From a bacterium (lineage in GTDB: Bacteria; Bacteroidota; Bacteroidia; NS11-12g; UBA955): a DNA stretch of 63,959 bases. Numbering within the stretch: the first letter of the stretch is position 1; the number at the start of each line of letters is the position of its first letter. The notes beneath the pieces are model-generated. The model saw nothing but the letters and a program-made list of their open reading frames with translations. It was not told the origin of the DNA and did not search any database. The translations under genes were made by a program, and so were the position numbers. The stretch spans positions 1-63,959 of the forward strand of contig JAQSCZ010000126.1 in NCBI GenBank assembly GCA_029945665.1, given 5' to 3'. Shown here in pieces: positions 13,018-63,292 of the stretch.

Positions 13018-13062
13018 AAGATTAGATACCATCAATTTTTAGAACAAAAATTTAAATCATAT

Positions 13063-13096
13063 AAGCCGGTCAATTTCAAATTGACCGGCTTTTTTT
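13063..13096 (+). terminator. Rho-independent terminator
   Basis: The perfect 11-bp stem aagccggtcaa/ttgaccggctt encloses a 7-base loop and runs into seven T. It ends the coiled-coil protein gene. Confidence 0.92.
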
Positions 13097-13135
13097 ATAA
13101 ATTGTGAACTTTTAAGTAAATTTTAAATATAAAAT

Positions 13136-14347
13136 ATGTCAGGATTCAAATATAAATATTCGACTTTGGTAGTCATCTTTTTATGCAATGTCATGGCATT
13201 CATGGTATTTTTTAATGCACCTTTAAAAGTAGATGAAGTTGATTACTATCCTCAGATTCTAAAGTATGTGGAAGGCGATTATAGCATGAATCAGGATATT
13301 ACAGCATTCACAACTTATCATGCGTTACTTGCAATTTTCGCAAAGCTTACCGGCCTCACATCTGTTTGGTTTTTTAGAGCCATCAATATGTTATTTGCTT
13401 TTGTCTCCGTAATTGTTTTTATGCGATGTGCCGCTTTAATTGAAAAGAAATGGCCCTCGATGGCCCTTCTTCAGTTTGCGTTCTTTCCCATTATTTTCCC
13501 TTATTTTTTCCTAATTTATACTGATATTTTATCGCTTTTGATGATATTGATTGGGTTGTATTTTTTTCTAAAAAAGAATTATCACTGGGCGGCCATATTT
13601 GCAATTATTGGTAGTTGTGTGAGACAGAATAACATTGTTTGGTTGGCTTTCTTTTGTTTATTGAGCTATGGTGAACCTAATAATTGGAAGTTTAGCGTAA
13701 ATAAAGGGGTCTCTCATTTAATTAAATATTGGACCTTCACGATGGGTTTTATTTTATTCGTTGGTTTTGTAATTATCAATAAAGGTGTGGCTATCGGAGA
13801 TCGGTCTATGCATCCACCATTTGCCTTTCAGCTTGGTAATATTTATTTTTTATTGTTTTGTTTCTGGTTTGTTTTTTTGCCCCTCAATCTTGGAAAATTA
13901 AAAGAGATTACATCGCTTTTCAAAAAATATAAATGGCTTATTCCAGCAATACTTATAGGCTATATCGGTTTCATTTTAACCTTCAATAATTCTCACCCAT
14001 TCAATTACCAATGGGGTGGTTATTTTCTGAGGAATAGAGTACTTATATTTTTCAATACATCACTCTTGCTCAAATCAATATATTTCATTGTTGTGCTCTT
14101 GGCAATTTTTTCAATAAGCCAAATTAAATTGGAACAAAAAAGTTTCTACCTTTTGTATCCAATGATCATTTTATATCTATTACCTTCTTGGTTAATAGAA
14201 CAGCGTTATTATATTATTCCATTTGCTTTGTTTTTATTATTCAGAAAAGAAGCAGATATTAAGACTGAGAAAATACTCACCGTTTGGTTGTGTTTAGCCG
14301 GTTTACTGTGTTTTATTATTATCAATTCAAGCAGATTTTTTCTATAA
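13136..14347 (+). CDS. ALG10/DIE2-like polyprenyl-phosphate-glucose glucosyltransferase
   Basis: The 403-residue polytopic membrane protein resembles the eukaryotic ALG10 alpha-1,2-glucosyltransferase of the ER N-glycan pathway. Recognisable points, in order, are the DE pair at residues 33-34 followed by a Y-x-P-Q and a DIT segment, a FFLIYTDILS helix, CVRQNNIVW around 162-168 (ALG10 has FRQTNIIW), IGDRSMH at 220-226 (ALG10 has IGDRSSH), an HPF segment, and a late QRYYIIPF (ALG10 has FRYFILPY). In eukaryotes the donor is dolichyl-phosphate-glucose. A bacterial enzyme would use a polyprenyl-phosphate sugar to build a surface glycan. It stands alone, with terminators on both sides. Confidence 0.75.
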   Translation: MSGFKYKYSTLVVIFLCNVMAFMVFFNAPLKVDEVDYYPQILKYVEGDYSMNQDITAFTTYHALLAIFAKLTGLTSVWFFRAINMLFAFVSVIVFMRCAALIEKKWPSMALLQFAFFPIIFPYFFLIYTDILSLLMILIGLYFFLKKNYHWAAIFAIIGSCVRQNNIVWLAFFCLLSYGEPNNWKFSVNKGVSHLIKYWTFTMGFILFVGFVIINKGVAIGDRSMHPPFAFQLGNIYFLLFCFWFVFLPLNLGKLKEITSLFKKYKWLIPAILIGYIGFILTFNNSHPFNYQWGGYFLRNRVLIFFNTSLLLKSIYFIVVLLAIFSISQIKLEQKSFYLLYPMIILYLLPSWLIEQRYYIIPFALFLLFRKEADIKTEKILTVWLCLAGLLCFIIINSSRFFL

Positions 14348-14458
14348 GATTGTTTCTTTTAATTCGTGTTGTGTTTTTGAAATGTAATTAAAACAAGATT
14401 TAATCGCATTTAAACAATGAAAAATGAATAACGGATGCAATTAATTTCAATAAAAGTA

Positions 14459-14488
14459 TTGTTATTTTAAAGAAATAGGTTATTTTTG
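14459..14488 (+). promoter_or_regulatory. Consensus Bacteroidota promoter
   Basis: TTG at 14459-14461 and TATTTTTG at 14481-14488 are separated by exactly 19 bases, a perfect match to TTG-N19-TAnnTTTG. It drives the small basic protein gene at 14509. Confidence 0.85.
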
Positions 14489-14508
14489 CACCCTTAAATA
14501 AAAAGATT

Positions 14509-14664
14509 ATGGCAGTTACAAGATTAATGAGAAAAGACAGACGTAATAAAGAATTTACTAGAGTTAGAAAAACTAACCTTAAGAATGTTCGCTCTGTATT
14601 ATATATTCAATCACCATACAAAGGTGTTTCAGGAATTGTATTAGAAGATCAAGAATCTAAGTAA
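14509..14664 (+). CDS. Small basic protein (51 aa), possibly ribosome-associated
   Basis: The frame starts at an ATG 21 bases after a perfect promoter and ends at TAA before a strong terminator, so it is a complete mono-cistronic gene. The product begins MAVTRLMRKDRRNKEFTRVR. It is very rich in Lys and Arg in its first half, with a short hydrophobic C-terminal half (VLYIQSPYKGVSGIVLED). The strong promoter, size and charge suit a ribosomal or RNA-binding protein. I do not recognise it as a named ribosomal protein and infer this role only from composition. Confidence 0.8.
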   Translation: MAVTRLMRKDRRNKEFTRVRKTNLKNVRSVLYIQSPYKGVSGIVLEDQESK

Positions 14665-14683
14665 TTGGATTAACAAATATTGA

Positions 14684-14714
14684 AAATCCCACTCCCTAAG
14701 AGTGGGATTTTTTT
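14684..14714 (+). terminator. Rho-independent terminator
   Basis: The stem aaatcccact/agtgggattt is followed by a T run to 14714, ending the small basic protein gene. Confidence 0.9.
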
Positions 14715-15003
14715 GTTATTATATTCACATTATTCCTAAATTAATTGTAAGAATTTCAATAACACTTAAGCTGAAAAGTTGCCATCCTAAGTCATAAATA
14801 CATTTAACCTCTTCGGATTTTCAGAACATTTACAATTTTCGATTGATAACACTTTCAACCCTTATCACATTTTAGAATTGGTTATATTTTGTTATGCAGA
14901 TTAATAAAGTTGCAAGTTTGCGCATTTAATTTCCATAAATTCACAAAACAATATTTTTTGAAAGTGCACTTGAATAAAAAAAACGTTTCTTTGCAACTCT
15001 AAT
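14715..15003. other. Intergenic stretch before the SulP gene
   Basis: This is AT-rich sequence with no reading frame I can support. It must hold the promoter of the SulP-carbonic anhydrase operon, but I see only a weak -7-like TTTCTTTG at about 14986-14993. Confidence 0.45.
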
Positions 15004-33676: not shown

Positions 33677-34784
33677 ATGAATAATGAGCAATTGAAGGAT
33701 ATAAGAGGCCGTGTTGAGGCTTTGGGGAGGTATCTTTGACGTCGAACAAAAATTAGCTTTAATAGCAGACGAAGAATCACAAACACTCTCTCCAGATTTT
33801 TGGAACGATTCAGCAAAGGCTGAAAAACATCTAAAAAAAATTAAAGAGAAAAAATTTTGGACAGAAGCCTATAAGTTATGTCAGGATGGATTATCTGATT
33901 TAGAAATACTCAAAGAATTTAATGAAGCTGGCGAAGCAACAGATGCAGAGGTTAACGAAGTTTATCAGAATACGACTGTAGCGCTCGAAAATCTTGAAAT
34001 GAAAAACATGTTGCGCCATGAGGAGGATAGGCTTGGTGCGATATTAACTATTAATAGTGGAGCAGGCGGCACAGAAAGTTGTGATTGGGCTTCAATGTTA
34101 GCTAGAATGTATATCATGTGGGGTGAAAAAAACGGCTAGTCTGTAACCGAAATAGACAGACAGGACGGTGATGTGGCAGGCATTAAATCAATAACCATCG
34201 AATTTGAAGGGAGTTTTCCGTATGGATATTTAAAAGGTGAAAGTGGCGTTCACCGCTTGGTGAGAATCTCACCTTTCGATAGCAATGCAAAGCGACATAC
34301 ATCATTTGCAAGTGTATATGCATACCCGATGATTGATGATGAAATTAAAATAGAGGTTAATCCAGCGGATGTTGATTTGCAAACAAGTAGAAGTGGCGGC
34401 GCAGGTGGACAGAATGTAAATAAAGTTGAAACGAAAGTGCAATTAACACACCGACCGACAGGCATTGTGGTGGTGTGTCAAAAAGCGCGTTCACAAGGCG
34501 AAAATAGAGAATTGGCCATGCAAATGTTAAAGTCTCAATTGTATGAATTGGAATTGAGAAAACAAAATGAAGCCCGCGATGCGATTGAAGCCAGTAAAAT
34601 GAAAATTGAATGGGGTTCTCAAATCCGAAACTATGTTTTCCATCCCTATAAATTAATTAAAGATGTGCGGACTGGAATCGAAACAAGCAATGTCAGCGCT
34701 GTAATGGATGGTTATTTAGATGAATTTATCAAAGGTTATTTAATGGCCTTAGGTGGTAATATTGTAGAAAAAGGTAAAGGTTAA
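33677..34784 (+). CDS. prfB: Peptide chain release factor 2, with +1 frameshift site and an in-frame amber codon
   Basis: RF2 ends translation at UAA and UGA. The zero frame runs from ATG 33677 for 20 codons to CTT TGA (TGA at 33737-33739), preceded by the Shine-Dalgarno-like GGGGAGG at 33724-33730, the classical autoregulatory +1 frameshift site. The shifted frame begins GAC at 33738 and gives 368 residues in all, with the anticodon-reading SPF at 198-200 and the catalytic GGQ at 243-245. Odd point: codon 154 is TAG (34137-34139), in frame, where E. coli RF2 has Phe (RGFKTE). The rest of the frame is intact. It is a nonsense mutation, a sequence error, or a readthrough site. Without suppression the gene would give a 153-residue product with no GGQ domain. 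Confidence 0.93.
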
Positions 34785-62196: not shown

Positions 62197-63261
62197 TTAT
62201 TGTTTTTTCACATATGTATCTCCAACTTTTACCAAGGTAGGTCTATCTCTAAATCTTTCATCAAGTTCAGCCTCGCTTAAGGTGTTTTTTTTCGTTGGCA
62301 AAGAAATAACTGAGTCGTGACTATCTTCATTGCCAATTTCCGCGAAAGAGCCATCCTTTTTTCTATCAACAACGTTATTAGCACTAAAGGTAGAATTTAA
62401 TAACTGACCATTAGCAAACATTATCATGCTATTTTTAAAATAATCTGCAAAACTATTGTAGTGTATTTGATTAAATCCTACACCTCCACACTTGCCAAAA
62501 ATATCTAATTTAAATCCCAAATTAGGTACTGATAATTTTTTGGGTCCTACTCTCGTGTATCTATCCGACAATCCAATCAAATGCCCTGCTTCATGAATTG
62601 CTTCTACAATTTGATCTTCTAGAGAAACGCTTGAATTAATGAATGCAGCATTTGAAGTTAAAATATACTCTACTGAAGTAGTGTGAGACTACTTTGGTTG
62701 ACTATATGCGCCAAAGTACATTATATTATTTCCATTGTTTTTTGAATATGCGCCAAGTATAGACTTACTACCAGACATTTGCTGGGATAATTCAGCTCCA
62801 CCCGCTACAAAATTCACTTTAAAAACAATTGTAACACCATTAGATTCTCCACTTTTGTAAATAGTGCCAAACAATCGATTCATCTCGTCAACCATTAAAG
62901 CAGAGGCTCCCACACAATATATTGTTGACGATATTGTTAAAGTTGTTTTGCCGTTTTCGTCCTTTGTTATAGAAACTGTATAGTCATTTCCGTCGGCATC
63001 GATAAGATATATTGGATTATTCGCACAATACATGTATGGGGAGTTATTAGGATGATATACCGATCTAAAATCTTGTTTAAACCATCTACCTAACCTACTA
63101 TCATATATTCTCTCGCCAAAATCATAATCTCCACCACTCACATTTATCTCATTATCCTTCTCTTTCCCATTAAAACCAAACCTGTACCCCACATCGAATA
63201 TACTGCAAACTGTAGATTGTTTTGGATTGAAATTCTTATGAGTTTTGGTAATACAATCCAT
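62197..63261 (-). pseudogene. Orphan RHS-core metzincin toxin, interrupted by an in-frame TAG
   Basis: One frame of 355 codons runs from ATG 63261 to 62197 with a single internal TAG (62691-62689, codon 191). Residues 1-95 are an RHS core (YRFGFNGKEKDNEI, RIYDSRLGRWFKQDFRS, YMYCANNPIYLIDADGND). Residues 95-190 form strands typical of secreted hydrolase tips (TTLTISSTIYCVGASA). After the TAG comes HEAGHLIGLSD at 223-233, matching the metzincin HExxHxxGxxD, with a likely Met-turn at 279-281 (SMIM). A later start at 62580 would drop HEAGH. Without readthrough the toxin domain is lost. A -7 element TATCTTTG lies at 63300-63293. Confidence 0.7.
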
Positions 63262-63292
63262 CCGTTTATAGATTTAAAGTTGATATGCACAT

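Follow-up and report, generated by a model that had tools for sequence, protein, structure and literature searches.

The prfB locus

The window, meaning the whole stretch of 63,959 nucleotides analysed here, comes from an uncultured member of the Bacteroidota and carries on its plus strand prfB, the gene of release factor 2 (RF2). Its zero-frame leader (33677–33739) runs for 20 codons from the ATG at 33677 and then meets TGA. A Shine-Dalgarno-like GGGGAGG (33724–33730) stands three bases upstream of the CTT of the +1 frameshift site CTT TGA C (33734–33740), with CTT at 33734–33736 and TGA at 33737–33739. This leader end at 33724–33740, which is kept in the relatives, had been taken in a preliminary description for the classical RF2 frameshift, and we concur.

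The RF2 body (33738–34784) is read in the +1 frame from GAC at 33738 to the stop codon at 34782–34784. This frame is not open to the gene end, as it has exactly one internal stop, a TAG at 34137–34139, which is codon 154 when the GAC at 33738 is counted as codon 21. The SPF motif for stop-codon recognition (34269–34277) and the GGQ motif for peptide release (34404–34412) are both whole, so the same description was right that the +1 frame is intact through them except for the TAG. It was also right that the TAG is one base away from TAC or TAT.

When it is translated through the TAG, the protein reaches 462.6 bits with TIGR00020 (cut-off 370), which places it in the RF2 family, and the product has both the PCRF and the RF-1 domains. 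The locus shares with the known programmed +1 frameshift autoregulation of prfB the Shine-Dalgarno-like GGGGAGG, the CTT TGA C, the short leader and the +1-frame RF2 body, and differs from it in one additional stop within the body. By its body and shift site we file the gene as a frameshift-autoregulated RF2, with the TAG taken as an error. A two-piece RF2 made by re-initiation was set aside by reasoning: a frame could open at GTG 34173, but it leaves out domain 1 and the beginning of domain 2.

prfB in the relatives

The source genus has 16 other genomes in the set compared, and three of them (G001, G003 and G016) are without a complete prfB, so 13 genes were compared. The shift site reads CTTTGAC in all these 13 and altogether in 125 of 130 related loci, at least nine of which repeat a genome already counted. 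GGGGAGG and the stretch GGGGAGGTATCTTTGAC are identical in 13/13 same-genus genes. In the portions of the two sources used here, prfB frameshift sites are common in Bacteroidia (523/726 genomes, PMC8710568), and TAG serves as the stop of the shift motif in none of 8,164 genomes (PMC12421855). The frameshift reading of this prfB is correct and ordinary. One relative (L107 of G025, minus strand) has CTT TAA C at its shift site in place of CTT TGA C, and that TAA is a stop read by both release factors.

At the TAG position, the same-genus genes have TAC (7) or TAT (6), that is Tyr in 13/13 and TAG in none. Among the 130 related loci with their at least nine repeats, the column holds Y 92, F 32, M 3, C 2 and I 1, as expected from the earlier statement that Tyr or Phe is usual there. 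The E. coli RF2 has Phe at this position.

RF2 scored above the cut-off in 99/117 and 144/149 genomes of two sets with 13 in common, which makes 230 distinct genomes. A TAG is known within the RF2 frame in only one of the 230, the source genome. A TAG within the RF2 match was listed also for G203, but this genome has 336 aligned RF2-frame residues without a stop and its TAG falls outside the RF2 frame. The one or two TGA or TAA in the RF2 matches of other genomes are assumed to precede the shift site, in a stretch that is not translated in the +1 frame. This position was directly confirmed for G185 (L331) only, so another genome may yet have a lone TGA or TAA. G020, of the same family and listed as 96% complete, has no match to the RF2 profile, which also detects RF1.

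In four of the 130 related loci, the aligned frame contains a stop. Three of these are the gene's own end, and the fourth is a lone in-frame TAA near base 173, at residue 16 of the +1 frame, in a groundwater MAG (L160). The four relatives inspected have Ser at that position. In G033 and G105, prfB is split across frames.

Against the closest relative (L093), dN is 0.081 before the TAG and 0.013 after it, while dS is saturated. Seven positions, the TAG included, differ from all 13 relatives, and one of the other six lies behind the TAG. By these substitution patterns, prfB is shown to be strongly constrained both before and after the TAG, and a long-dead gene would look different. A second intact prfB elsewhere, which had been named as grounds for dropping the preliminary account, was sought in the assembly and none was found; the other match to the RF2 profile is RF1. 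RF2 is essential in E. coli K-12, as stated in the consulted part of PMC5373646.

TAG in the source genome

We surveyed 1.86 Mb, or 49% of the genome, for how coding segments end. The 1234 strong segments close with TAA (885), TAG (204) or TGA (145). UAG is therefore neither rare nor absent as a terminator with 204/1234 segments ending in it, and is an ordinary terminator in the source genome.

In the same 1.86 Mb, the stops flanked on either side by coding signal numbered 83 (TAA 66, TAG 11, TGA 6) and were flagged. Seven of the 83 were kept by eye, under no blind rule, as interruptions of a single gene, and 76 were dropped for a next gene with its own start or for a wrong-strand or weak signal. 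The by-eye set has TAG in four genes, TAA in three and TGA in none. The TAG cases are prfB, the window's 62689–62691 (minus), L204 at 7963 (minus) and L226 at 15229 (minus), and the TAA cases are L208 at 16337 (minus), L252 at 664 (minus) and L306 at 2788 (plus).

Random nonsense changes are expected to split into 0.49 TAA, 0.27 TAG and 0.24 TGA, from the codon usage of 1.11 Mb with transitions counted double. The TAG share of the by-eye interrupted genes is 4/7 (P 0.09), or 3/6 without prfB (P 0.21), and is not significant in either count.

A lead towards genome-wide TAG tolerance was that the gene at the window's right end and the L204 gene also run across TAG. The former, at 62200–63273 on the minus strand, is a piece of a gene with an Rhs-associated core domain and a metalloprotease-like end with HEAGH, and has its in-frame TAG at 62689–62691. 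The three TAG genes other than prfB are this Rhs-core piece with the HEAGH motif, a T9SS-secreted protein and a GldJ-like protein. The T9SS-secreted gene has paralogues in the same genome; the GldJ-like one is below the GldJ cut-off and also has paralogues. For both genes, genus homologues or paralogues read through without a stop, and members of the T9SS family in G011 and G014 have stops as well. All three look dispensable and none is clearly essential.

Among the seven interrupted genes, prfB is the only clearly essential one. We considered infB (L252) as a second broken essential gene and rejected it, as the stop is in a duplicated C-terminal fragment of a gene that also has an intact copy. 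The fragment with TAA lies at 536–898 of L252 (G000:C25, minus), and the complete infB at 13059–14798 of the same contig.

tRNAs and RF1

The preliminary description had called for a search for tRNAs with anticodon CUA. The assembly gave 32 tRNA matches, with 150 of 353 first-look candidates scored. ARAGORN called no CUA anticodon in the 30 tRNA loci fetched, a set without tRNA-Ile(GAT) and tRNA-Ala(TGC). The tRNA set is incomplete because neither of these two was called. A pattern search for a CUA loop with a T arm hit five places, none of them a CUA tRNA: two are in known tRNA genes and three are without a tRNA call. Hence the suppressor was looked for and not found, in an assembly that is without some tRNA genes.

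Two of the matches have no locus of their own. C23:2692–2755 is in a tRNA-Tyr(GTA) gene (L033). The other, G000:C31:3963–4028 (L051, 1818–1883), duplicates part of the tRNA-Arg(CCT) gene and lies about 250 bases behind the complete one. As a weak match and a fragment of that neighbour, it was rejected as a suppressor tRNA.

A weak RF1 was rejected as well, since the RF1 (L002) has no residue unlike all 15 relatives. By its sequence, RF1 looks normal and unremarkable.

Discussion

The TAG at codon 154 is most likely a one-base error of sequence, consensus or assembly in a draft genome, the wrong base itself being inferred. It is best taken so because it is an isolated one-base stop, at a Tyr codon in all the same-genus genes examined, in a single-copy gene with an essential function, and the genome is a draft. 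The assembly has 126 contigs and its nine closest genome-contig matches are labelled MAG, and the source genome is probably a MAG too. Sequencing error had been put forward at the outset as a simpler explanation, and Tyr in 13/13 same-genus genes and a TAG known in only 1/230 genomes favour it. The consensus error is best ranked first, the rare broken allele next, and UAG suppression or a kept RF1 feedback last.

Essential genes are indeed broken in these drafts, usually by frame changes and less often by lone stops. The rpoB gene is above its cut-off in 93/117 genomes, and internal stops are listed only for G027 and G060, where rpoB is in pieces in both. It is also in pieces in G096 and G049, in each on one contig. 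In G027, a three-contig genome, rpoB (G027:C1:1205731–1209504) is spread over several frames with many stops. Three points count against the error reading, however. Full-length rpoB matches list no stop, so the essential genes of the drafts seldom have a lone stop; TAG interrupts three other genes of the source genome; and the assembly misses some tRNA genes, among which a suppressor tRNA may be.

Alternatively, the TAG may be real and recent, either as a defective prfB allele carried by some of the population or in a sick lineage that lives on low-level readthrough, caught as the consensus. A lone substitution with no other lesion in an otherwise constrained gene is just how a very young allele is expected to look. 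It is nonetheless an unlikely account, as a consensus should show the base that predominates in the sample, the assembly has no second prfB and RF2 is indispensable to E. coli K-12. Kawakami and Nakamura reportedly described in 1990 the autogenous suppression of an opal (UGA) mutation within the RF2 gene. A UGA within the RF2 gene corrects itself: RF2 itself reads UGA, so RF2 shortage favours the readthrough. That mutation is likewise an in-frame stop inside the RF2 gene, but the UAG here is read by RF1 and would, by this mechanism, go without the self-correction. More improbable still is that UAG is suppressed by a missed or unassembled CUA tRNA or by a weak RF1, with TAG being partly sense throughout the genome. 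The incomplete tRNA set and the 4/7 TAG among the genes judged interrupted by one stop, compared with 0.27 expected, speak for it in the 1.86 Mb. Its opponents are the P values of that excess, the absence of CUA tRNA from the 30 loci and the pattern search, an RF1 with no position differing from all 15 relatives, the 204 segments terminated by TAG, and the dispensable look of the other three TAG genes, whose families include uninterrupted members in other places.

UAG is read by RF1 and not by RF2. With the TAG falling in the RF2 frame, it had been proposed that a leaky UAG makes the RF2 supply depend on RF1 as a second feedback loop. The five bases before the TAG (ACGGC) include two G and no T, and in E. 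coli G in these five bases raised the readthrough and T lowered it (PMC11126739, in the part used here). However, the base following the TAG is T, and by that source a T after the stop promotes termination in E. coli, where TAG also gives less readthrough than TGA. A regulatory codon should moreover be kept among relatives, and the TAG is in 0/13 same-genus genes. No stimulating RNA structure was found behind the TAG in one 101-base window, which folds worse than the shuffle mean (z +1.09, with 178/200 shuffles folding at least as well). That TAG is never the stop of the shift motif in the 8,164 genomes also argues against RF2 having been selected for control by RF1, as far as the excerpted PMC12421855 goes. 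With RF1 unremarkable and UAG an ordinary terminator besides, the proposed loop found no support, and a kept leaky codon is the least credible of the readings. Barely more credible is that the lineage reads UAG partly as an amino acid, by which RF2 would need two recoding events and its level would fall when RF1 is plentiful, coupling both factors.

The in-frame stop in prfB has parallels in the literature. Single-genome prfA pseudogenes (Prince et al. 2025, PMC12421855) similarly have a stop in a release-factor gene in one genome of its kind, but concern prfA instead of prfB and 34 genomes. In the passages available, their authors do not decide whether sequencing errors are behind them, and no mention of stops further down prfB was found there. 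The in-frame stops in functional prokaryotic genes, as described in the accessible part of PMC7918605, also lie within otherwise constrained genes. That study, unlike our single-genome case, kept only the stops common to at least two genomes to exclude sequencing errors. In the literature searched, partly as passages, neither an amber codon within prfB nor an RF1–RF2 cross-feedback was found described.

In summary, before a solitary stop in an essential gene is called recoding in a draft genome, the reads should be consulted, and the prfB TAG case is accompanied by another draft (L160) whose prfB has a single TAA at another codon. If the TAG is real and read through, the supply of RF2 would hinge on both RF1 and RF2 itself. 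If it is the consensus error that we favour, the TAG would be absent from the working prfB of the living population. The gene would then be an ordinary single-copy prfB regulating itself by the +1 frameshift, and RF2 would be made through the usual +1 shift alone.
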